A stretch of 49,029 bases of DNA, taken from assembly GCA_902778175.1 (NCBI GenBank), contig CACYWT010000028.1:1-49029 (forward strand), written 5' to 3'. How positions within the stretch are numbered: the stretch's first letter is position 1; each line of letters opens with the position of its first letter. The translations under genes and the position numbers were made by a program. Shown here in pieces: positions 21,335-46,209 of the stretch. Under the pieces are notes generated by a model. The model made no database searches and was not told where the DNA came from. It worked only from the letters and a program-made list of their open reading frames with translations. The stretch is from an uncultured Ruminococcus sp. (GTDB lineage: Bacteria; Bacillota; Clostridia; Oscillospirales; Acutalibacteraceae).

Positions 21335-21518
21335 TATAACCGCAAAGTATGTCCCCCGAGTCTCGCCTGCCGGCTCGGTCGGTGCTTCTGCTTCGCAGAG
21401 GTGTCCACTGGACACCCGCACCCTCTAAGGCTATATCCGTTCAGTGGGAGTAAAAATCTCCCACTGAACGACAGCAAGCCTACGGCTTGCCTTTGCTTGT
21501 TGAAAGCAAAGCTTTTAA
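21335..21518 (+). repeat. Family A repeat, composite form (copy A3)
   Basis: The first 97 nt (21335-21431) are identical to the inverse of 3-99. Then comes the hairpin module, a 13-bp stem CGTTCAGTGGGAG/CTCCCACTGAACG, followed by the family A core ending GCTTTTAA. Thus the 97-nt cassette replaces the short link found between TATAACCGC and the hairpin module in the copy at 43710-43812. Confidence 0.92.
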
Positions 21519-35609: not shown

Positions 35610-37273
35610 TGTTTTGCTCCTCCTCCGTAATATTCAAAGCAAAGCATTGTAAGATCATCGAACTGCTCTGCGTCTTTCACAAATTCGTCTACCGATCCAC
35701 GGACATTTTTCAGTATGCCGCACGGATCCGCCTGAGGATCTTTATTCAGGGCATCAAGCATCCTGTCAGTTCCGAAAAGCTGTTTTTCACTGTTCGTTGC
35801 CTCCGGCACACCGTCGGTATAAAGAAACAGCTTTGATCCCGGAGTGAAATCAATTTCATACTCCTTATAGCGCATTCCGTCCATTCCGCCGAGAACAAAA
35901 CCATGCTTATCCTTATACAGCTCAAATTTATCGCCTTTTTTAAGCACCGGAAATTCATGTCCTGCATTGGCGGCTGTGAGCCTGCCGGTGGAAATCTCAA
36001 GTATTCCGAGCCATGCGGTAACAAACATATCCTCCTGATTCCTTGAGCATATCGCAGAATTTGCCGCAGAAAGAATTTCGGAAGGCGTTTTTCCCATTTT
36101 TGCATAATTGGCAAGAATGATCTTTGTAGCCATCATGAACAGCGCGGCAGGAATACCCTTGCCCGATACGTCCGCCATGACCATGCACAGATGATCGTCA
36201 TCAACAAGGAAGAAATCGTAGAAATCTCCGCCGACCTCCTTCGCAGGATCCATTGATGCATATATATCAAATTCCTTCCTTTCAGGGAAAGGCGGAAAAA
36301 TACTCGGCAGCATACTTGCCTGTATCTTTGTTGCGAGAGTAAGCTCCGTACTGATACGTTCCTTTTCCGCGGTGATCCTCGTAAGATCGTCAACATAACT
36401 GACTATTCTTTCCTCCATCTTATCAATAGATGCTGCAAGACCGCCGATCTCGTCCTTGTTCTTCACGGTTTCTGCGAGCTTTTTGCCTGCTATACTGTTT
36501 TCCTTTGAGAATCGGCTTGTTTCCGTGGTAATTGCCCTGATCGGCTTCAGCAGTACAAAATGAAGATATAGCGTCTGTCCTATTATTACAAGAACCGCCA
36601 ATCCTATCATTACCGCAATGACCCTGTTCACATAAGTATTGCGCACTCTGACAATGGATTCCATCTGTCTTTGAACGCACAGAATAGCCGTTGTTTTTCC
36701 CGTTTTATCTTTCAGCGGTATCATAACGGTTATATGCGGATCAGTTTCGATATAGCCCTGATCCCTTACCACTGCTTCCCTGTCCGATTCACCGTCATAC
36801 AGCCGTTTGTATTTTTCGCGGTATTCGTCATTGGTCGTATTGCGGACAAAGCCGAAATCGTAGCATTGGTAATCACTGTTATTGTTTATGGTCGAAAACA
36901 GGAATGTGATATGCTTATAGTCTGTCAGATCGGGACGAATCACATATATGAACGTCACTCCCTCGGAATTGCAGAGATCTGACATTTTTTTCCATGTTTC
37001 GAGATATTCCTGTGTTTTGCCTCCGCTTTCGGCATAGGCATCCATTCTGTCTGCATCGATCCCTGCCGACGCAGTATTTGCCGTATTGAAGGCGTCATCT
37101 GTGTACTGTTCAAGCAGCGCTGCGGTAAAGCTGTTATAACCCATGATACTGACGATAACAGAAAAAATCACAAGTATTGAGATTATTCCGAAAACGCTTT
37201 TAAAAACCACGCTTAATCCTTTTCTTTTTTTCTTAACATTTGTTTTTTCTTTTTTTGCATTATCTTTTTTCAT
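35606..37273 (-). CDS. Membrane sensor PP2C phosphatase, RsbU/SpoIIE-like
   Basis: The 555-aa protein has a basic N-terminus and span 1 (about 27-48). An extracellular sensor region (about 50-215) with several Tyr residues and a short span 2 (about 218-240) follow. Then come a HAMP linker (to about 295), a coiled coil and a SpoIIE-type PP2C domain (about 325-545: VGGDFYDFF, MADVSGKGIPAALFM, FDDLTMLCF). It should dephosphorylate an anti-anti-sigma protein in response to an outside signal. GAGG lies about 11 nt before the ATG. The STAS partner is not in the window. Confidence 0.9.
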   Translation of the reverse strand: MKKDNAKKEKTNVKKKRKGLSVVFKSVFGIISILVIFSVIVSIMGYNSFTAALLEQYTDDAFNTANTASAGIDADRMDAYAESGGKTQEYLETWKKMSDLCNSEGVTFIYVIRPDLTDYKHITFLFSTINNNSDYQCYDFGFVRNTTNDEYREKYKRLYDGESDREAVVRDQGYIETDPHITVMIPLKDKTGKTTAILCVQRQMESIVRVRNTYVNRVIAVMIGLAVLVIIGQTLYLHFVLLKPIRAITTETSRFSKENSIAGKKLAETVKNKDEIGGLAASIDKMEERIVSYVDDLTRITAEKERISTELTLATKIQASMLPSIFPPFPERKEFDIYASMDPAKEVGGDFYDFFLVDDDHLCMVMADVSGKGIPAALFMMATKIILANYAKMGKTPSEILSAANSAICSRNQEDMFVTAWLGILEISTGRLTAANAGHEFPVLKKGDKFELYKDKHGFVLGGMDGMRYKEYEIDFTPGSKLFLYTDGVPEATNSEKQLFGTDRMLDALNKDPQADPCGILKNVRGSVDEFVKDAEQFDDLTMLCFEYYGGGAKQ

Positions 37274-37574
37274 ATCATTATAACCTCATTATTCATTCAG
37301 AATTTCTGATTTTCATTTATATTTTACCACTTATTGTAAGGTAAATGTCAAATAAATTTATCATAAACAGCATAATAATCCGTTAAAAATCATAATAAAA
37401 CATAAAATCTATATTTTAACCAAATGCGTCACCGATTTATTGTATAAAATCACAGTGTCATAATTTAAATGCAGCCTGCCATTTTTTCTACAATTTTATA
37501 TTTATATAGACAGTTGTAAAAAAATATTAATTATAGTATAATTAAACCAATATATTATAAAACAGGAGGCCATT
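37274..37574. other. AT-rich divergent intergenic region
   Basis: This 301-nt region lies between the phosphatase (minus) and the DtxR-type regulator (plus). It holds the promoter at 37514-37542 and no gene or repeat that I can see. Confidence 0.6.
37514..37542 (+). promoter_or_regulatory. Promoter of the DtxR/MntR-family gene
   Basis: TTGTAA 37514-37519 and TATAAT 37537-37542 are 17 nt apart, 32 nt upstream of the ATG, which also has ACAGGAGG. Confidence 0.75.
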
Positions 37575-37964
37575 ATGAGACCTGATTTAAACCCCGAAAA
37601 AACGGCTGAGGATTATCTTGAAGCTATGCTGATGATAAAGATCAAGAACGGAGAAGTGAGATCCGTTGATATAGCACGTCATCTTGGCATTACCAAACCC
37701 AGCGTAACATATACCACCAAACGCCTGAAAGAAAAGGGTTACATCACAATGGATAAGGATAATTATATCACTATTACCGAAAGCGGATTAAAAATTGCCG
37801 AAAAAATCTTTGCCCGTCATAAAATCCTTACTAACCTTTTTATCCGTCTTGGCGTTCCGGAAAACATTGCCGAGGAAGACGCCTGCAAAATAGAACACGA
37901 TATCAGTCCGGAAACCTTCGACGCCCTTTGCAGGCATCTTGAAACCTACGGGAAAGATCAATAA
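37575..37964 (+). CDS. DtxR/MntR-family metal-dependent repressor
   Basis: The 129-aa protein has an N-terminal winged helix (SVDIARHLGITKPSVTYTTK) and a dimerisation/metal domain, without the SH3 domain of DtxR. Metal ligands match MntR at a constant offset of five: Asp13, Glu16, His82, Glu107 and His108. Cys104 stands where MntR has Glu99, as in the DtxR iron site. The metal could be manganese or iron. A perfect ribosome site precedes the ATG. The radical SAM gene follows after 68 nt. Confidence 0.9.
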   Translation: MRPDLNPEKTAEDYLEAMLMIKIKNGEVRSVDIARHLGITKPSVTYTTKRLKEKGYITMDKDNYITITESGLKIAEKIFARHKILTNLFIRLGVPENIAEEDACKIEHDISPETFDALCRHLETYGKDQ

Positions 37965-38032
37965 AAGCCATTATCAGAAACCATGTGACAGATAATATCA
38001 GAGCTAAAAATGATTATACAGAACGATGAAAA

Positions 38033-38905
38033 ATGCACTTTGTGAATGTCAAAACAATTCTTTCAGGCAGCGGCGGATATTCCGGAATGAATATTTACCG
38101 CGGGTGTACTCACGGCTGTATCTACTGTGACAGCAGAAGCAAATGCTACCAGTTCACCCACCCCTTTGAAGATATTGAAGTAAAGCAGAATGCGCCGGAG
38201 CTTCTTGAAAAAGCACTGAGATCAAAAAGAAAAAGATGTATGATAGGTACGGGTGCAATGTCCGACCCATATATGCATTGCGAGGAAAGATTACAGCTCA
38301 CGAGAAAATGTCTTGAGGTGATTCTCAGGAACGGTTTCGGCGCGGCTGTTCAGACTAAATCAGACCTGATACTCAGAGATATTGATCTGCTTGAACAGAT
38401 CAATAAAACAGCAAAATGTGTTGTCCAGATAACACTCACAACATATGACGACGCTCTGTGTAAAATACTGGAGCCGAATGTCTGCAATACCAAGCGCCGT
38501 ATCGAGGTCCTGAAAACAATTCAGGAACGCGGCATACCGACAATCGTATGGCTGACCCCCATTCTCCCGTTCATTAATGATACAAAGGAAAATATCACAG
38601 CTATCCTTAATGAATGTGTCGGCGCAGGAGTCATGGGAATTATTGATTTCGGAATGGGGCTGACCCTCCGGGAGGGAGATCGTGAATATTATTATGCGGC
38701 TCTTGACAGGCATTTCCCCGGCATGAAGGAAAAATATATCAGCCGCTACGGCAATGCATATGTGCTCACAAGTCCGCAGGCTGATGAGCTGACAACAATT
38801 TTTCACAGGATATGCCGCGAAAACGGCATCATGTCCGATCCGGACGAATGTTTTTCTTATATGAGGAAACTGCCGGAAAAATACGAGCAGCTCAGCTTTT
38901 TCTGA
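38033..38905 (+). CDS. SPL-family radical SAM protein
   Basis: The 290-aa protein has the [4Fe-4S]-SAM motif CTHGCIYC (Cys25, Cys29, Cys32) and overall similarity to the spore photoproduct lyase-like group (IGTGAMSDPYMHCEERL, AVQTKSDLILRDIDLL). The reaction is unknown; these proteins are not proven DNA lyases. The ribosome binding site is weak, so it may be read through from the DtxR-type gene. Confidence 0.85.
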   Translation: MHFVNVKTILSGSGGYSGMNIYRGCTHGCIYCDSRSKCYQFTHPFEDIEVKQNAPELLEKALRSKRKRCMIGTGAMSDPYMHCEERLQLTRKCLEVILRNGFGAAVQTKSDLILRDIDLLEQINKTAKCVVQITLTTYDDALCKILEPNVCNTKRRIEVLKTIQERGIPTIVWLTPILPFINDTKENITAILNECVGAGVMGIIDFGMGLTLREGDREYYYAALDRHFPGMKEKYISRYGNAYVLTSPQADELTTIFHRICRENGIMSDPDECFSYMRKLPEKYEQLSFF

Positions 38906-38938
38906 ACCCGATAGTGAAAAATATTACAGTACGGTGCC

Positions 38939-39247
38939 TTGCCGCGGAATGATCTCCATAAAGCATGGGCATATATCTTTAGGCAGCACCGCACAAAGAC
39001 CGCCTTAAAATATTATCACCTGCTAATCGGAATAGCTCTGATCGGGGCAATTGTAATTCTGCTTGTATCTGTTCCGGAAGGAATAGACAGCCTATTGTTC
39101 CGTATCATTCTCGGAGCTGTCATCATTATCATTTATCTTTCAGCAATGGTAATGATGTGGATAGAAAAAAAGCTTGAGTCAAAAAAACGGACAGAACAGC
39201 TCCAAAAATTCCAGTCCGAAATAAAAGGTACTGCACAAGTAAACTGA
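38939..39247 (+). CDS. Small two-span membrane protein, start uncertain
   Basis: The frame of 102 codons contains two clear membrane spans (about 26-47 and 52-74) and a basic coiled tail. It begins at a TTG with no convincing ribosome site, and its first 25 codons run through a family B repeat fragment (38978-39009). The true start may have been lost or replaced by the repeat. A strong terminator follows. The family is not recognised. Confidence 0.4.
   Translation: MPRNDLHKAWAYIFRQHRTKTALKYYHLLIGIALIGAIVILLVSVPEGIDSLLFRIILGAVIIIIYLSAMVMMWIEKKLESKKRTEQLQKFQSEIKGTAQVN
38978..39009. repeat. Family B repeat, short copy
   Basis: TTTAGGCAGCACCGCACAAA through CGCCTTAAA matches the short copy at 5160-5192 and the terminus of 43098-43240. 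Confidence 0.75.
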
Positions 39248-39254
39248 ATACGAA

Positions 39255-39285
39255 AAGCCTGACCGGTTTGATCGTCCGGTCAGGC
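39255..39285 (+). terminator. Strong terminator
   Basis: AGCCTGACCGG pairs perfectly (11 bp) with CCGGTCAGGCT, followed by GTTTTAAT. Confidence 0.88.
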
Positions 39286-39387
39286 TGTTTTAATATGTAT
39301 TAACTTGAACTGTCAGGTGCTTTTACGGCAGCATCGGATCCGGTTCATAATTACTGATTTATGCTCATTAATGATCCCGGTGATAAA

Positions 39388-40770
39388 TCACTTTGCATAT
39401 TCCTTTATGATTTTATCAATATGAATACCGCTTTCAAGCTGATGGAGCATTGTCAGGGCAGGATTGGTTCTGTTTGCGATACGCTCATAAAGGGGTAAAA
39501 GATATATCTCTTCGCCAAAGCCGCGCTCAATAAGTCCCTGCTTGCAAAGGTCAATGATCTGTTTAGTCAAAGAATACATACCGTCAGTATCTATATATGC
39601 AGGCTTGATCCGACAAACAAGCTGGCGGCGCAGCTCGACTGCATTATAACCGTTGTTATAAAGCGAACAATCATTTTTGATAAGCTCCATAAGCTCGTCC
39701 GTTTTATCAAGCAGACCGGTATGAAATGCCGCAACTGTCATAGCATCGCTTATCGGCTGACAGCAGGCGCTTCGGAATTCTATCGTTCCTCTGAATGTAA
39801 GATCCTCTGTTTTGAAGGTACGAAGATATATTATATCCTCAGGCTGAGGATTAAACTCCATAGAACATATCTCGCCGTTTTCGAGATATTCTCCGGTAAG
39901 CTTTTCCGTATTGAAGTATTCCAGAAGGTTGACCGGTTTGAAATTGAGATACTTCCCGTTTCTCTCAACACAGTAGATCGCTGTGGTGGAGATATAATTC
40001 AGAAGATCATCAACTGTATCAAGCTCACAATCATACATTCCTACATTATGCGGATTGATGCCGTGTGTACTGTTCTCCCATAGCATATCGCGGCAGCATA
40101 GCAGATCCTCATTTTCGTGCAGCAGTACGGAATTGCTGAAAAGCAGAGCCTTGATCGGTTCAAGCTGATTGAAGGTATTTATAACCTGCGGGATCCTGTC
40201 CCTGGTGACATCAAGCTGGACCTGTGATGCGCTCGAAAACATACCGAACTGAGGATAACGGTGAAAATACATCGGCAGACAGGCATATTTTGAAAAGGAC
40301 GACAGATGATGGAAAAGCATTTTATATCTGCCGTTTTCGATCGGAACATTATTATTTACCATTCGGTTGGGATTGATCCCCATACCGGTCAGTGTATAGT
40401 TGAAGCGCTTTAAATGATCCTGCACAAAATCATAATACCGTCTGAAGCGTCCGTGTATGGTGTGAAGCTCGATTTCTTTGCCAAATGAAAATTCCATATT
40501 GTTGTATGAACAGTCATAGGAGAATACATCTCCGTTTACTTTATTCAGCGCAGAATAGATATGTCCCTGCTCATCAATCCCGGTAGGAATAAAATCAAAT
40601 TCTTTCAGGAAAAGCTCTGTCAGCTTATGGACTATATCAAAATTCACTGCTTTGTGTGAGAGATTAACGATCGGCATTTCTATCTCTACGCCGATAAAGC
40701 TGCCGTCCTTGTTTTCAGTAGGTTTTATATACCGGTCATATAAAATTTCAGCCACATCATCTTTTGTCAT
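39388..40770 (-). CDS. Glutamate-cysteine ligase-family (carboxylate-amine ligase) enzyme
   Basis: The 460-aa protein resembles the GCS2/EgtA branch of glutamate-cysteine ligases: the N-terminal glutamate/metal site IGVEIEMPIV (about residue 26), YNNMEFSFG, QVQLDVTRD and the C-terminal GTIEFRSACCQPISDA. It probably joins a carboxyl group of glutamate to an amine using ATP. The acceptor is unknown. The frame is open upstream into a family A repeat, but ATG 40770 with AAGGGTG 8 nt upstream is the start. It is third in a ligase-amidotransferase-ligase cluster. Confidence 0.78.
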   Translation of the reverse strand: MTKDDVAEILYDRYIKPTENKDGSFIGVEIEMPIVNLSHKAVNFDIVHKLTELFLKEFDFIPTGIDEQGHIYSALNKVNGDVFSYDCSYNNMEFSFGKEIELHTIHGRFRRYYDFVQDHLKRFNYTLTGMGINPNRMVNNNVPIENGRYKMLFHHLSSFSKYACLPMYFHRYPQFGMFSSASQVQLDVTRDRIPQVINTFNQLEPIKALLFSNSVLLHENEDLLCCRDMLWENSTHGINPHNVGMYDCELDTVDDLLNYISTTAIYCVERNGKYLNFKPVNLLEYFNTEKLTGEYLENGEICSMEFNPQPEDIIYLRTFKTEDLTFRGTIEFRSACCQPISDAMTVAAFHTGLLDKTDELMELIKNDCSLYNNGYNAVELRRQLVCRIKPAYIDTDGMYSLTKQIIDLCKQGLIERGFGEEIYLLPLYERIANRTNPALTMLHQLESGIHIDKIIKEYAK

Positions 40771-40799
40771 AATAATCACCCTTTTATTGAGTCTGGAGT

Positions 40800-40889
40800 T
40801 TAAAAGCTTTGCTTTCAACAAGCAAAGGCAAGCCGTAGGCTTGCTGTCGTTCAGTGGGAGATTTTTACTCCCACTGAACGGATATATGG
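40800..40889 (-). repeat. Family A repeat with hairpin module (copy A5)
   Basis: It carries the core (TTAAAAGCTTTGC to GTAGGCTTGC) and the 13-bp hairpin CGTTCAGTGGGAG/CTCCCACTGAACG with an A/T loop. The TATAACCGC end is degraded. It lies between the amidotransferase and second ligase genes, 30 nt before the latter's ATG. Confidence 0.9.
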
Positions 40890-40935
40890 CACCCGTACCG
40901 CAAAGGACAATTATGCCGTATCATAATATTTCAAA

Positions 40936-40957
40936 GTCTTTGCGCGGCGCCGCCTAT
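40936..40957 (-). repeat. Family B repeat terminus at the amidotransferase stop
   Basis: On the minus strand the sequence reads TAGGCGGCGCCGCGCAAAGA, a version of the family B end. Its leading TAG is the stop codon of the amidotransferase gene. Confidence 0.6.
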
Positions 40958-41727
40958 AGGTTTGCAAATATGCGATAAAGCAGTTTCATGGATTCTTCGC
41001 TTTCAATGTATTCATGTCCGTGATTGGTTCCGGTCTTTATCAGGCTGCCCTTATAATACGCTAATGATCTTGTAAAAGGCAGGGGCTGCCATTCCTCGCT
41101 GCTGAGGGGGACTGTGGAAAGCAGCGTATAGTTATCCCTGCTCAGATAAAAAAGTGTTCCCTTGCAGTTGGTATGAGCATAAAGATACTTTCCATCTGAA
41201 AAAAGCAGATTAAGTTTGTTTCCCTTCGCCATTTCGCATATTATCCCGTCAAACAAAGCAAAGCGTTCTTCAAAGATCAGCCTTGTCCCCTTTTTAGCTT
41301 GCGCTGCATTTAATCTGTCAATAAAATACAAAAGTATTCTTTCGCTGTCGGTATCGCCAAGCTGTTTTTTTACATATTGGCTCAGCGGAGAATAATCAAA
41401 AATAGTACCGTTATGGATAAGCGTCCATCTCCTGCCCGTATTGTCCTTTGCGCTGAACGGGTGGCAGTTTTTGTATTCAACATTACCGATCGTTGCATAG
41501 CGGATATGGGCAAGCATTATTTTTGCCTTAACGGGCTGAGATAATCTTTCTTTCAGATAATTGCTTTCTGATGCCTTTATGCTTTCCTTTTCGATCAGCG
41601 CGCTGTTGCGCGAAATGCAGGCAAGTCCCCAGCCATGGGGATGATGCTCGCTGTGGCTGTAAAAGGTGCGGAGATAGTCATTTGCATTAAAATCATCTCT
41701 TGAGATCAATCCGAATATTTCACACAT
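40954..41727 (-). CDS. Class II glutamine amidotransferase (EgtC/YafJ-like Ntn hydrolase)
   Basis: The 257-aa protein starts MCEIFGL, so Cys2 becomes the N-terminal nucleophile after Met removal. It also has HPHGWGLA, LAHIRYAT, NCHPF and HNGTIFDYS, the glutaminase-site motifs of the YafJ/EgtC group. It has no synthase domain, so it probably hydrolyses a gamma-glutamyl bond. ATG 41727, not the upstream ATG at 41736, is chosen because Cys must follow Met; GGGAGAG lies 8 nt upstream. It overlaps the GshA-like gene by 8 nt. Confidence 0.9.
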   Translation of the reverse strand: MCEIFGLISRDDFNANDYLRTFYSHSEHHPHGWGLACISRNSALIEKESIKASESNYLKERLSQPVKAKIMLAHIRYATIGNVEYKNCHPFSAKDNTGRRWTLIHNGTIFDYSPLSQYVKKQLGDTDSERILLYFIDRLNAAQAKKGTRLIFEERFALFDGIICEMAKGNKLNLLFSDGKYLYAHTNCKGTLFYLSRDNYTLLSTVPLSSEEWQPLPFTRSLAYYKGSLIKTGTNHGHEYIESEESMKLLYRIFANL

Positions 41728-42937
41728 ATCCGACACTCTCCCTGTATTCTTTCGCCAGAGCGATCCCCTTATTCATATAATCATCTCCGAAACGGCTGCT
41801 TACTCTCTCCGCATAGCTTTGCCCCTTCCGGGTTTTATTTATCTGATATTCAATAATATCACTGTATTCGGGGAAATACTTTTCTGTAAAGAACTTTATT
41901 TCTTCAAGGACACTTATCGCTCTTTGTCTGATATCCTCATTTCCGAATATGGCAGCGGACTTTACGTCACGAATCGCTTTTATCTGATCTTTGCCGGTAA
42001 AATCATATTCCGGAAGTGAGGCAAGATAAAGCATGAGCAGATGTACAAATCTGATATCCTCTGTAAAAATGCCTGTCTTTGAAAGCGGATTCACATCTAT
42101 CACACGAAGTTCCAGATGATTTATACCGTTTTCCGCAAGCGCTTCCAGACTGTTTGCGCCCCTCGGTTTCAGTCTGACAGGATAATAAAGCTCGGACACG
42201 GAACGCAGATTGCCGTCGTCAATATATTTTTGTATGCTTGCGATATAACTGTCAAGACAGGAATAGTCAAGTATCGGCGTAAAATGGTTCCAATAGCCGA
42301 TCTCAGAACATCTGACGGAGGAATAGACATTGCTGCTTGTGCCTATCGTAGTATCTGCAACAGGACTTGCCGCCGTAAGATATACTACAAGCCACGCATA
42401 TTCCGTCAGCCGTGATGCAAGCTCAAGATACAGATGGTTTTTGAAATCAGAAATGCTTTCATAACCGCTTTGCTCACAGGCTGTTTCTACAAGTTCATTC
42501 GTAAAGGAAAAATTGAGATGAATCCCTGAAAACAGCATTTTTATCTTTCCGTATTTCTGAGCAAGATACTGACGATAAACAGATTTGTTCTGCAGACTTC
42601 CGCTGTACTTTGCTACAGGTATTTCAGCCTCGCCGCTTATCCTCGGCGGATTTGAAAACGGCCAGAGATATTCGTCCTGCTCTTTGAGCCTGCTGTTGAC
42701 GATTTTTTGCAGATCTGCAAGATGCTCATTGACCTGCTCAGGTGTAGCAAAAACATCACTTATCAGTTCTGTCTGATTTTCGCAGAAGTCACGTTCAATA
42801 TTCTTATTGATTTCAAACGGGTGCGGTGACTGGGCAAGACTGCCGTTATTGCATATACGCAGACCTTCCCTTTCAATACCGAATTCAGCTTGTCTAAAGT
42901 ATTCATTTAATGTGTTATTGTCTATATCCAACAGCAT
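41720..42937 (-). CDS. gshA: Glutamate-cysteine ligase, GshA type
   Basis: The 405-aa protein has the proteobacterial-type GshA signatures FGIEREGLR, FCENQTELIS, PFSNPP, YGKIKMLFSGIHLNFSF and HLELRVIDVNPL. It should make gamma-glutamylcysteine, or a related gamma-glutamyl amide, from glutamate, an amino acid and ATP. It is shorter than E. coli GshA (518 aa) and lacks the ATP-grasp half of GshF. ATG 42937 with GAGAG is preferred to GTG 42952. A long inverted repeat lies 45 nt upstream. No glutathione synthetase gene is nearby. Confidence 0.88.
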   Translation of the reverse strand: MLLDIDNNTLNEYFRQAEFGIEREGLRICNNGSLAQSPHPFEINKNIERDFCENQTELISDVFATPEQVNEHLADLQKIVNSRLKEQDEYLWPFSNPPRISGEAEIPVAKYSGSLQNKSVYRQYLAQKYGKIKMLFSGIHLNFSFTNELVETACEQSGYESISDFKNHLYLELASRLTEYAWLVVYLTAASPVADTTIGTSSNVYSSVRCSEIGYWNHFTPILDYSCLDSYIASIQKYIDDGNLRSVSELYYPVRLKPRGANSLEALAENGINHLELRVIDVNPLSKTGIFTEDIRFVHLLMLYLASLPEYDFTGKDQIKAIRDVKSAAIFGNEDIRQRAISVLEEIKFFTEKYFPEYSDIIEYQINKTRKGQSYAERVSSRFGDDYMNKGIALAKEYRESVGYV

Positions 42938-42981
42938 AATATCATCTCTCACATATTTACATAGTGGTCAGATAGGTATAT

Positions 42982-43022
42982 ATGATATAATAACCTACTT
43001 ATTTGATAGGTTATTATATCAT
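42982..43022. promoter_or_regulatory. Perfect 16-bp inverted repeat upstream of gshA
   Basis: ATGATATAATAACCTA 42982-42997 and TAGGTTATTATATCAT 43007-43022 are exact inverse copies around a 9-nt spacer. A third partial half site (GATAGGTATAT) is at 42971-42981. The position, 45 nt upstream of the gshA ATG, and AT-rich arms with TATAAT-like sequence suggest an operator overlapping the promoter. Confidence 0.75.
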
Positions 43023-43097
43023 ATTATTTCTTTTGTGTCAATGCTTATAAAAAACAAGTCTGCACAGACAGCCTGAACTTTTATATAACCATATGAT

Positions 43098-43240
43098 TTA
43101 AGGCAACACCGCACAAAGAACGCCTTACGGCTTAGCACCACATCTGCTTGCTCTTTTTCCGTCATTCTGCACAAAACTCGCTTGATAACCGTCAGGTTAA
43201 CTGCGCTCGTTTTGCACATCTTTGTGCGGTATTGCCTTAA
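43098..43240. repeat. Family B repeat, complete 143-bp element
   Basis: The element has terminal inverted repeats of 21 nt (TTAAGGCAACACCGCACAAAG and the inverse of TTAAGGCAATACCGCACAAA...), differing at one base. The interior is shared with 23299-23478. It encodes nothing credible. The TTAA ends and small size fit a miniature inverted-repeat element moved in trans. Confidence 0.85.
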
Positions 43241-43252
43241 TCCATAAAAAAA

Positions 43253-43280
43253 GACTTCCGGCATTATTTTGCCGGAAATC
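43253..43280 (-). terminator. Terminator of the starch-binding-like fragment
   Basis: GATTTCCGGC pairs with GCCGGAAGTC (one mismatch) on the minus strand, followed by TTTTTTT. Confidence 0.8.
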
Positions 43281-43404
43281 CTGAATCAATACAGCTTGTT
43301 TTCTTTACGGATCAGATCTTATCGCTAAAAGTCATCTGCGAAAAAACGGACAGATCATGTTCAATTAATACCGGGATAATTTCAGAGCTTTATTACCGTT
43401 TCAA

Positions 43405-43851
43405 TCATTCCTTGTACTCGTACCATTCCCCTTTAAGATATGCACTCTTTGTCTTTTCAGAACCCCTGCCCTTTTTGGGCTTTGCAGAAAGATCAATTGT
43501 ATAAACCTTACCTGTATTTTCATTTGATTTATATGCCAGGTCGGCTGTCTGATATGCATAAACACCGTTTTTCACTTCTTCATCAGTTACACCGTTGCTG
43601 AAAATAATGCTCGTTGCTCCCTCTGGTGCGATCACTCTGTAGATATCAGTTCCCTTGATCTGCTCCATCTCAAATCCCGGCCACATATTTTCATAAAAAC
43701 CGCCGGTTATTAAAAGCTTTGCTTTCAACAAGCAAAGGCAAGCCGTAGGCTTGCTGTCGTTCAGTGGGAGATTTTTACTCCCACTGAACGGATATATGGC
43801 ATTGCGGTTATAACACTCCTTGTATACAAATGTATAGCAAAATTCTGACAA
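43405..43851 (-). pseudogene. Starch-binding (CBM26-like) module fragment joined to a family A repeat
   Basis: Codons after the repeat (43405-43709) encode FYENMWPGFEMEQIKGTDIY, APEGATSIIFSNG and YQTADL. This pattern fits the CBM26-like starch-binding modules of Ruminococcaceae secreted proteins. The expected N-terminal strand, signal peptide and catalytic domain are absent. Upstream of FYENM the frame runs straight through a full family A repeat to an ORF start without a good ribosome site. It looks like the 3' remnant of a larger gene cut by the repeat. The terminator is still present. A short functional fusion cannot be excluded. Confidence 0.55.
43710..43812 (-). repeat. Family A repeat, full form with hairpin module (copy A6)
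   Basis: It runs from TTAAAAGCTTTGC through the core and the 13-bp hairpin module to GATATATGGCATTGCGGTTATA, giving both family A termini in one 103-nt unit. It is identical to 40800-40889 over the core and hairpin. Confidence 0.92.
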
Positions 43852-44370
43852 TATCCTGCCAAAAAATAGGACAAAACCTTTTTATATAACTTTACAAAAT
43901 TTCAGATGATTTTCATAACATTTTCTATAATAATAACCAAAAAATTGCTATTTTTTCCCGAATATCATATATTATCATTGAATCGGAAAATATCAGGATC
44001 CTCTCTGACAGCAATATGTTTCTGTGCAGATCACCAAAATCTTTTCTGAGCCGGATCAGATCTGTAATCTCTGAAAACAACATCGGAGTGAAACGGCATC
44101 AGCGGGATCCTTCAAATGAAAATGCTTTCTGTATCAAACAGAAGTTTTTTTAATTATTCTGAAAAACGCCCCGCTTTTGTTAAATATTTGTTATATATTT
44201 GTTATACACCCTATGTTATAGTAAAAAGGTAATGCTATTACTATCCTGTTTTCAAAAAATAAGAGCGGATGATTTTCTGCCCTGATAATAAGATTGACAA
44301 AAAGTAAAAGCAATAATATAATATTACCGGGCAATTCAATGCTCTGAAAAAAAAAACGGAGGTCAGACAA
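43852..44370. other. Intergenic region without a recognisable gene
   Basis: The 519-nt AT-rich region upstream of the acetolactate decarboxylase fusion shows no ORF with coding features and no family A or B repeat. A short direct repeat TTGTTATA occurs twice near 44188-44205. It presumably holds the promoter. Confidence 0.5.
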
Positions 44371-46209
44371 ATGAAAAAGAAATTAGCAATACTCTTGCTG
44401 GCATCAATGGTGATGTCCTTCTCTGCCTGCAATCAGCAGAAAGATACCAAATCAGAAGAGTCAAAGTCAACACAGACATCAGCTTCTTCCGAAACATCGC
44501 AGGACAGGGAAACTGTGTATCAGGTAGCGCTTTTGCAGTCGCTTACTCAGGGCTACTATGACGGCATTATCAAGGTAAGCGATCTTAAACAGCACGGCGA
44601 TACCGGTATCGGTACATTTGAGGGCGTCAACGGCGAGATGATCGTTATTGACGGCAAGGTATACCAGGCGCTCGGCGACGGTACGGTAAAGGAAGCCGAT
44701 GATAACGAAACAGTCCCGTTCTCAAATGTCAGCTTCTTCGACAGTGATGTTTCTGTCGATCTTAAAGATATCAAGGACATGGCATCATTCAAGGCTGAGC
44801 TTGACAAAACGGTAAACGAAAAGGGCAAGAATATGTTCTATCTCGTAAAGGTCAGCGGTACATTCGATAAGATGTTCGTCCGCAGCGAGATCAAGCAGGA
44901 AAAGCCCTACAAGAGCCTCGACAAAGCTCTTGAAACAGACCAGCGCGAATTCAATTACGACAATATCAAGGGTACGGTAGTAGGTCTTTACTGCCCCGAT
45001 TATATGGGCGGACTCAATACCCCGGGCTGGCATTTCCATTTCATTTCCGATGACAGAACAAAGGGCGGTCATATGCTCGACCTTTCATTTGCAAGCGCAA
45101 AGGCAGAGCTTGATATCACACCGAGCTTTGATATGCAGCTTTCGGATAATTCCGATTTTCAGAGCATGGAGCTTGCAAAGAATGTTGACGACGCTATCAA
45201 AAAGGTCGAAACTTCTGATAAATCCAATACACAGGAGAACTCTCTTTCTATGTGGAAGGATTCTGCGCCGCTCAAGACTCAGCTTACCGAATATATAAAA
45301 GAGATCACCGATGAAAAATCCGATTCATTTATTCCTGTTGAGAACCGTATAGCTGTATTTGATATGGACGGCACTCTCTGCTGCGAAACTGATCCGGGTT
45401 ATTTCGACCACAAGCTCCTTTATCACCGCGTAATGGAGGATCCCGATTATAAAGACAAGGCAAGCGCCGAGGAAAAGGAAACAGCAAAGATAATTGAAGA
45501 GTATTTCAAGACAGGCTCATACCCGAAGGGACTTGACGTAAAGCACGGCACAGCCGTAGCTACAGCATTCAAGGGCATGACTCCGGCTGAATTTGACGCT
45601 TATGTCAAGGCTTACAGAGATCAGCCGATGGAAAGCTATGACGGTATGACAAACGGACAGGCATTCTATAAGCCGATGTTACAGGTCATTGATCTGCTGA
45701 AGGCAAATGACTTCACTGTTTATATCGTCAGCGGAACGGACAGACTTATCACAAGAGGACTTGCTGAAGGCATCGTTGATATACCGGTCAGCCAGATGAT
45801 CGGCTCAGACGAATCCCTTGTTGCTACGGGTCAGGGTGATACCGACGGACTTGATTATACCTTCACTCATGATGACAAGCTTGTGACCGGCGGTGATTTC
45901 CTTATCAAGAACCTCAAAATGAACAAGGTCACCGTGATCCAGCAGGAGATCGGTCAGCAGCCGGTTCTGTCATTCGGCAACAGCTCAGGCGATGGCGCTA
46001 TGGCTAACTTTACGATCACAAACAACAAGTACAAGAGCGCCGCATTCATGCTCTGCTGCGATGATACCGAAAGAGAAAACGGCAACACTGAAAAGGCTGA
46101 AAAGATGCGCAAGAGCTGTGAGGAAAACGGCTGGACAGCAGTTTCTATGAAGAACGACTGGACAACCATCTACGGCGACGGCGTTACCTATAAAGGCAAG
46201 GCAGAGTGA
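44371..46209 (+). CDS. Lipoprotein fusion of alpha-acetolactate decarboxylase and HAD phosphatase
   Basis: The 612-aa precursor has a lipobox (SFSAC, Cys20) and a Ser/Thr-rich linker. Residues about 47-290 are an acetolactate decarboxylase domain: LTQGYYDGIIKVSDL, GIGTFEGVNGEMIVIDG, the conserved Arg171, and the zinc ligands His221, His223 and His234 in GWHFHF and GGHMLDL. Residues about 320-600 are a HAD hydrolase with FDMDGTLC (Asp331, Asp333), YIVSGTDR and FGNSSGDGAM. The decarboxylase makes acetoin from acetolactate; the phosphatase substrate is unknown. Both would work outside the membrane. GGAGGT lies 8 nt before the ATG. It is monocistronic. Confidence 0.88.
   Translation: MKKKLAILLLASMVMSFSACNQQKDTKSEESKSTQTSASSETSQDRETVYQVALLQSLTQGYYDGIIKVSDLKQHGDTGIGTFEGVNGEMIVIDGKVYQALGDGTVKEADDNETVPFSNVSFFDSDVSVDLKDIKDMASFKAELDKTVNEKGKNMFYLVKVSGTFDKMFVRSEIKQEKPYKSLDKALETDQREFNYDNIKGTVVGLYCPDYMGGLNTPGWHFHFISDDRTKGGHMLDLSFASAKAELDITPSFDMQLSDNSDFQSMELAKNVDDAIKKVETSDKSNTQENSLSMWKDSAPLKTQLTEYIKEITDEKSDSFIPVENRIAVFDMDGTLCCETDPGYFDHKLLYHRVMEDPDYKDKASAEEKETAKIIEEYFKTGSYPKGLDVKHGTAVATAFKGMTPAEFDAYVKAYRDQPMESYDGMTNGQAFYKPMLQVIDLLKANDFTVYIVSGTDRLITRGLAEGIVDIPVSQMIGSDESLVATGQGDTDGLDYTFTHDDKLVTGGDFLIKNLKMNKVTVIQQEIGQQPVLSFGNSSGDGAMANFTITNNKYKSAAFMLCCDDTERENGNTEKAEKMRKSCEENGWTAVSMKNDWTTIYGDGVTYKGKAE

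Follow-up and report, generated by a model that had tools for sequence, protein, structure and literature searches.

We found that a 49,029-nt stretch of DNA from an uncultured Ruminococcus sp. (contig CACYWT010000028.1; the whole stretch is called the window here) carries a genuine conserved unit of three genes, which we label A, B and C, encoding two gamma-glutamyl ligases and a class II amidase. These are known kinds of enzyme in a combination of which we located no description; among the matches listed, no title or abstract start in the open-licence PMC literature describes the three-gene set. The amidase B accompanies a gamma-glutamyl ligase of changing type, and the A-B-C operon is probably part of a cysteine/Fe-S regulon. 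A first-pass annotation of this DNA had described three open reading frames (ORFs) on one strand behind a long palindrome, namely a GshA-type ligase, an EgtC/YafJ-like class II amidotransferase overlapping it by 8 nt and a second, unrelated enzyme of the glutamate-cysteine ligase (GCL) family, and had recognised neither EgtD nor glutathione synthetase. The results given below bear out each part of that description, and the three minus-strand ORFs all lie within 39388-43022, as it had placed them. The features of the unit are as follows.

41720..42937, minus strand: A, a stand-alone GshA-type glutamate-cysteine ligase, 405 aa from the conserved ATG (from PF04262 and motifs)
40954..41727, minus strand: B, a YafJ/EgtC/Dug3-type class II amidotransferase, 257 aa, with a Cys2 nucleophile (from PF13230, motifs and model)
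39388..40770, minus strand: C, 460 aa, representing a new subfamily within the GCS2/plant-type glutamate-cysteine ligases (from profile, model and motifs)
42980..43024, no strand: operator palindrome with perfect 18-nt arms at 42980-42997 and 43007-43024
42993-43011: core dyad of the operator, ACCTA-N9-TAGGT
43013..43041, minus strand: promoter TTGACA-17-TATAAT, 12/12 to consensus with an extended -10, overlapped by the operator

The identification of A is carried by a PF04262 match of 217.7 bits (gathering cut-off 27) and by matches to 3ln6 and 3ln7 at E values of 1.1e-48 and 3e-46. Its residues E22xE24, E57, Y121R122, H140xN142 and E276xR278 are invariant in 22 sequences, the window included. 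A resembles the N-terminal ligase half of GshF/GshAB (303 bits) but, at about 405 aa, is without the ATP-grasp half, which the GshAB models also span, and it scores below the NCBIfam equivalog cut-offs (149 against 393, 303 against 425 and 205 against 656 bits; TIGR01434 and NF002688/TIGR01435 tested). The open frame of A measures 383-447 aa in the seven genomes of our class sample (291 genomes) that have a strong A match, and no fused GshAB was found in these seven, a separate GshAB-type ATP-grasp gene not having been searched for; the A profile also has matches in seven other Clostridia of the sample, there to open frames of 765-790 aa. Clostridium perfringens possesses the gshAB pathway, according to an excerpt of PMC2940859.

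B matches PF13230 at 114.4 bits (cut-off 23), and its Cys2, H74xR76, H105, G107 and T126-D127-S128-E129 are invariant in 24 sequences, again with the window included; these presumably include the glutamate-binding residues as they are assigned in the GlmS and EgtC literature. The B model, with a mean predicted local distance difference test (pLDDT) value of 92.4, is closest to 1te5 (E 2.9e-16) and to EgtC 4zfl (E 2.5e-13). It thus has the N-terminal Cys nucleophile and the class II fold of EgtC, but falls under the EgtC cut-off of TIGR03442 (63.6 vs 218.65 bits; the B of locus L013 scores 56.1 bits). The end of A at 41720 and the ATG of B at 41727 give the overlap of 8 nt, and exactly this overlap recurs in 40 of 65 delimited A-B-C operons; eight could not be measured since no ATG-TGY start was recognised, and the remainder differ. 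The gap between B and C is 183 nt in the window, 0-20 nt in 42 of 65 relatives and more than 100 nt in 6 of 65 (script-called starts).

No Pfam match above cut-off and no NCBIfam match was obtained for C of the window. However, a profile built from nine C sequences (the window and eight relatives) finds plant glutamate-cysteine ligases at an E value of 5.5e-25, and PF04107 (GCS2) matches six of the nine members, the best at 2.3e-7, the window protein not being among them. The C model (mean pLDDT 95.6, predicted template-modelling score 0.93) has 2gwc as its best PDB match (E 2.9e-20, template-modelling score 0.78). C aligns to plant GCL at the ExE, a later E, RY, Q...D, FANS, R and ExR positions, and E29xE31, E93, R148Y149, Q183, D187, N213, R227 and E331xR333 are invariant in 27 sequences, the window included. 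The ATP/glutamate site, which the first-pass annotation had singled out for checking, is therefore retained at the level of catalytic motifs. Like the fold, these motifs are held in common with plant-type GCL; what sets C apart, besides the missing GCS2 match of the window protein, is an FHxxPxFGxF-like stretch, conserved in most members, ahead of the QVQLD strand. The possibility that C is a chance ORF or an unrelated protein is ruled out by the profile match to plant GCL and the 2gwc model match, and by profile and predicted structure C is distantly related to the plant-type enzyme. We also observed a divergent, stand-alone C branch in 16 fetched Clostridia loci (L125-L140), with no A or B labelled among the listed neighbours; these loci come from 16 of the 18 genomes that hold such relatives, all but G312 and G357. 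In a quick tree of 49 ligases, 15 of these divergent relatives group together with a support of 98 in the Shimodaira-Hasegawa-like approximate likelihood ratio test, and the group is nested inside the C set when the tree is rooted on four plant-type ligases that accompany B, which themselves cluster together with a support of 100.

Two established pathways account poorly for these genes. EgtD (PF10017) exceeded its cut-off in 0 of 18 genomes, with one match of 18.8 bits below it (G082), and the controls for this search were positive in E. coli and M. acetivorans. An ergothioneine operon is rejected on this result and on the missed EgtC cut-off. GshB (TIGR01380) likewise exceeded its cut-off in 0 of the 18 genomes, the best match being 47.5 vs 299 bits; the broader PF02955 was weakly over its cut-off in three of the 18 (26-42 bits), and these matches are probably RimK-like ATP-grasp proteins. 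Given that no GshB lies over the cut-off and that the frame of A is 383-447 aa in the seven genomes with a strong A match, an ordinary glutathione operon is disfavoured, as far as can be judged with no search made for a separate GshAB-type ATP-grasp gene.

The linkage of the three genes was counted by profile search of six-frame pieces, since gene calling had missed A or B at a small number of loci. Named prokaryote genomes, when scanned, gave 499 relatives of C, and counts for named loci refer to the best 80 of these 499. A, B and C stand intact and in this order on one strand in 70 of the 80, and two more loci have the same order with interrupted frames (L020 and L084), so that the three genes are adjacent in 72 of 80 named relatives; the first-pass annotation had proposed this adjacency as its test. 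Contig ends cut four of the remaining loci (L021, L033, L057 and L081). The last four are exceptions: L052 and L091 have C only, and two have B and C without A, namely L075, where B is interrupted, and L087, where two genes stand between B and C. Elsewhere in Clostridia the order is permuted and the linkage kept. The nine C matches in a family sample of 150 genomes, our own genome included, comprise A-B-C (own), C-A-B (G121), B-C-A (G024 and G036), C facing A-B (G047), B-C (G112 and G082) and C only (G029 and G005). The class sample gave 23 C matches, 18 of them weaker (35-320 bits), which are the divergent relatives described above, and five strong (>560 bits); the strong ones are A-B-C in G000 and G407, C-A-B in G344, B-C-A in G234, and B-C and C-A on two contig ends in G400.

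We then asked which ligase accompanies B. In the class sample, B is present at an E value of 1e-30 or better in 10 of the 291 genomes, and five of these have a strong C. Four others (L163-L166) have a plant-type GCL directly adjoining B and neither A nor C over threshold; this GCL scores 132-149 bits with TIGR01436, under the cut-off of 463. In G150, B is present and A lies on another contig. The B-plant-type GCL pairs of the four genomes stand near cysK, Rrf2, OAHS-like or MetNI-type transporter genes (names by eye). Among 378 genomes of the phylum, B gave eight matches at an E value of 1e-20, of which four exceed 300 bits and are all from Clostridia, the other four scoring 93-106 bits. Two genomes that carry B-C, G082 and G112 (99 and 98% complete), gave no match to A, a plant-type GCL elsewhere in these two genomes not having been searched for. 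These two genomes point to C being able to supply B by itself. Since B occurs with C in the absence of A, and with a plant-type GCL in the absence of both A and C, parallel or interchangeable ligases working alongside an amidase are favoured, and an obligatory chain in which C must follow A is disfavoured. Of the interpretation offered by the first-pass annotation, the conserved gamma-glutamyl ligase/amidase/ligase set stands, and the B-C and B-plant-type GCL pairs are more easily accounted for by interchangeable or parallel ligases than by an obligatory multi-step pathway.

The palindrome ahead of A overlaps and extends past the -10 box of the 12/12 promoter. As a terminator or known RNA element it was rejected, there being no Rfam match in window 36000-46000 and an overlap with a perfect promoter. 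To count the operator we used 58 regions, made up of the window and 57 of 65 named operons, the eight operons with too little upstream sequence being left out. The strict dyad is found upstream of A in 16 of the 58, against a mean of 0.16 and a maximum of 2 in 50 shuffles, and a relaxed promoter-plus-dyad arrangement is found in 16 of 58, window included. The 80 named loci contain 34 dyad sites vs 0-4 in 10 shuffles. When 86 loci are taken, there are 35 dyads: 15 before A, nine before cysK-like genes, five before Rrf2 genes (four of the five divergent from IscS), two before SufC, one before OAHS, one before B and two unassigned (names by eye). The window's own genome has five dyads, at the A-B-C operon, at OAHS-CysK, at Rrf2/IscS-IscU and at two places inside long ORFs of contig C31, while a reversed-pattern control gave three; the two on contig C31 are taken as chance. 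The same operator sequence therefore stands at the A-B-C operon and at cysteine genes, and since the palindrome is an operator common to cysteine genes, the A-B-C substrate is probably cysteine-related. From the positions of the dyads, together with what is known of CymR and IscR, we infer that an Rrf2 protein would bind the dyad. In Bacillus and Clostridium, Rrf2-linked control of cysteine genes is described for the CymR regulon, where CymR represses cysK, ssu and mccAB, and no glutamate-cysteine ligase operon of the A-B-C kind was seen in the portion of that account available (PMC3828012).

The neighbouring genes, named by eye unless Pfam or NCBIfam is cited, also include genes of sulfur metabolism. 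Of the 80 named loci, 23 have OAHS, 18 CysK, 17 Rrf2, 14 CysE, 13 NadA, 11 each LysR, methyltransferase, IscU and SufS, and 8 LuxS; the NadA, LCM methyltransferase and TusA/DsrE proteins were named by Pfam/NCBIfam. At least one of OAHS, CysK, Rrf2, CysE and LuxS is present in the fetched flanks of 37 of the 80 loci vs 0 of 15 divergent C loci, this control being 15 of the 16 fetched loci with L134 (4.2 kb) left out. The control loci have a mean length of 12.7 kb; the 46 named loci of at least 12 kb have a mean of 17.8 kb, and 26 of these 46 have at least one of the five families. Some operons also take in genes for methyltransferase, LuxS, CysK/CBS-like and CGL-like proteins, a combination like that used to convert methionine to cysteine. 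In the window, nine neighbouring ORFs were tested and none of them was recognised as a sulfur gene of this kind. No tailoring enzyme recurs beyond a minority of the 80 named loci.

The mechanism that we favour, at about an even chance of being right, is that this operon, as part of a cysteine/Fe-S (Rrf2, CymR/IscR-like) regulon of anaerobic Clostridia, encodes a system by which cysteine is reversibly capped with a gamma-glutamyl group. Departure of the repressor from the operator would lead to A, B and C being made together. A, using ATP, would join the gamma-carboxyl of glutamate to cysteine to give gamma-glutamylcysteine, and B, as an N-terminal-cysteine amidase, would strip the gamma-glutamyl group to give free cysteine back. 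C would be a second, parallel gamma-glutamyl ligase, with either cysteine or a different sulfur compound or amine as its acceptor. In cells that lack glutathione synthetase, gamma-glutamylcysteine would serve as the final low-molecular-weight thiol or else to store cysteine. The identity of the repressor, the reactions and the cycle itself are all proposals of this model. There is precedent for such a thiol: gamma-glutamylcysteine serves in this role without gshB in haloarchaea, as excerpted from PMC7278568, and in Leuconostoc, as cited in the part of PMC3517610 that was available.

Several observations weigh against the capping cycle. Making and hydrolysing one bond from one operon would be wasteful unless B is regulated or acts downstream, and the co-conservation of two unrelated ligases in most loci (72 of 80) suggests that they do different things or use separate acceptors. 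The reactions of A, B and C are predicted from sequence, and the link from the operator to Rrf2 is drawn from position. The strict dyad lies ahead of A in only those 16 of 58 regions, and its relaxed form in 22 of 58; 43 of the 80 named loci are without any of the five counted sulfur families in the fetched flank. Linkage also has its exceptions: L052 and L091 carry C only, C occurs without A or a strong B in G029 (75% complete) and G005 (92%, with a distant C), and G424 has A with neither B nor C. Finally, co-occurrence was measured on close relatives, the best 80 of 499.

In a more far-reaching reading, C may glutamylate a non-cysteine acceptor while A supplies gamma-Glu-Cys and B deprotects an adduct, giving an undescribed low-molecular-weight thiol of anaerobic Clostridia. 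We regard this as unlikely; were it true, a sizeable group of bacteria from gut and rumen would possess a glutathione substitute of its own, induced together with cysteine synthesis. Next to it stands the idea of the first-pass annotation, a protecting-group pathway to an unassigned thiol, in which the gamma-Glu-Cys made by A would be modified by the product of a gene outside the operon, B would deglutamylate the result and C would glutamylate another intermediate. The EgtA-EgtC logic of ergothioneine synthesis, as partially quoted from PMC7278568, offers a model for it, and B has 1te5 and EgtC as its closest folds, while A and C are unrelated yet co-conserved. However, no tailoring gene is constant, the commonest extra neighbours being general sulfur or NAD genes, and B is found with C minus A and with a plant-type GCL minus both, so that we think this pathway unlikely too.

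It is improbable, in our view, that C replaces glutathione synthetase by adding an amino acid or an amine to the gamma-Glu-Cys made by A, so that a tripeptide akin to glutathione results, which B would then degrade in the manner of Dug3. The absence of GshB over the cut-off from all 18 genomes would fit, as would the position of C as the last gene in the commonest order and an M20-like peptidase (by eye) beside C in the exceptional loci L087 and L010, reminiscent of the DUG system. Against this, C retains the glutamate-ligase motifs of plant GCL, divergent stand-alone relatives of C exist without neighbouring A or B, and C is present without A in G082 and G112, though a plant-type GCL elsewhere in both is possible. 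The same two genomes, with the four in which a plant-type GCL adjoins B, show that the ligase beside B changes type, which would agree with A and C being redundant isozymes for gamma-Glu-Cys, one perhaps for another redox or cysteine range; joint retention in 72 of 80 loci exceeds what redundancy would lead one to expect, and we rate this idea a little lower again. Most improbable by far is that B is a true amidotransferase passing glutamine ammonia to A or C to form the amide of a gamma-glutamyl thiol: its class II glutaminase fold is common to GlmS and PurF, and glutathione amide exists in Chromatium (per an extract of PMC7278568), but its closest folds are the YafJ-type 1te5 and EgtC, and partners of the GCL type activate glutamate, so that ammonia would merely regenerate glutamine.

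Compared with known systems, the A-B-C set resembles EgtA-EgtC, in which a glutamate-cysteine ligase is likewise accompanied by a class II amidase that has an N-terminal Cys and cleaves off a gamma-glutamyl group. Unlike in that pair, A is GshA-type rather than EgtA, B lies far below the EgtC cut-off, and there is no EgtD over the cut-off in the 18 genomes. In the yeast DUG system (Dug1-Dug2-Dug3), Dug1 and Dug2 are M20-type peptidases. A-B-C differs in having its ligases within the same operon and in being without a constant peptidase partner, the M20-like gene beside C occurring only in L010 and L087 among the loci inspected. What is alike is Dug3, a glutamine-amidotransferase-like protein that takes part in cytoplasmic glutathione breakdown, according to the part of PMC12653102 available.

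We know of no established main small thiol for many gut and rumen Clostridia. The present set provides three neighbouring genes, together with their promoter and operator, for testing what it is, and the carriers of the operon include a named strain, Eubacterium oxidoreducens DSM 3217 (locus L072). In addition, C defines a ligase subfamily that Pfam and NCBIfam miss in the window protein, and B represents an amidase family whose partner glutamate-cysteine ligases are of several types.

Some further observations concern the surroundings of the operon. In 13 of the 80 named loci (L024, L048, L091 and others), the first or second gene downstream of C encodes the quinolinate synthase NadA; one neighbouring NadA member was confirmed by NCBIfam and Pfam, and some stand beside a HydE/BioB-like radical SAM protein (by eye). 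In L087, a 206-aa protein with a sub-threshold Peptidase_C39_2 match (L087:2665-3285) lies with the M20-like peptidase between B and C, and a similar protein is encoded about 7 kb from B-C in L014 (L014:12231-12851). In the window, a single ORF at 44371-46209 has a lipoprotein-like start (by eye) followed by an alpha-acetolactate decarboxylase domain and then a HAD hydrolase domain, a pairing that looks unusual. Just upstream of the operon, window 43092-43246 holds a 28-nt inverted repeat (89% complementary, 99 nt apart), which has GGCARYACCGCACAAAG in common with a further copy at 38982-38998 and looks like a small mobile or repeated element. The gap between B and C contains one more feature.

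40848..40880, no strand: repeated intergenic hairpin between B and C, not conserved in the operon

This hairpin consists of GTTCAGTGGGAG and its reverse complement 7 nt apart, and it is present in three copies in the window, at 21439-21469, in the B-C gap at 40849-40879 and at 43759-43789.

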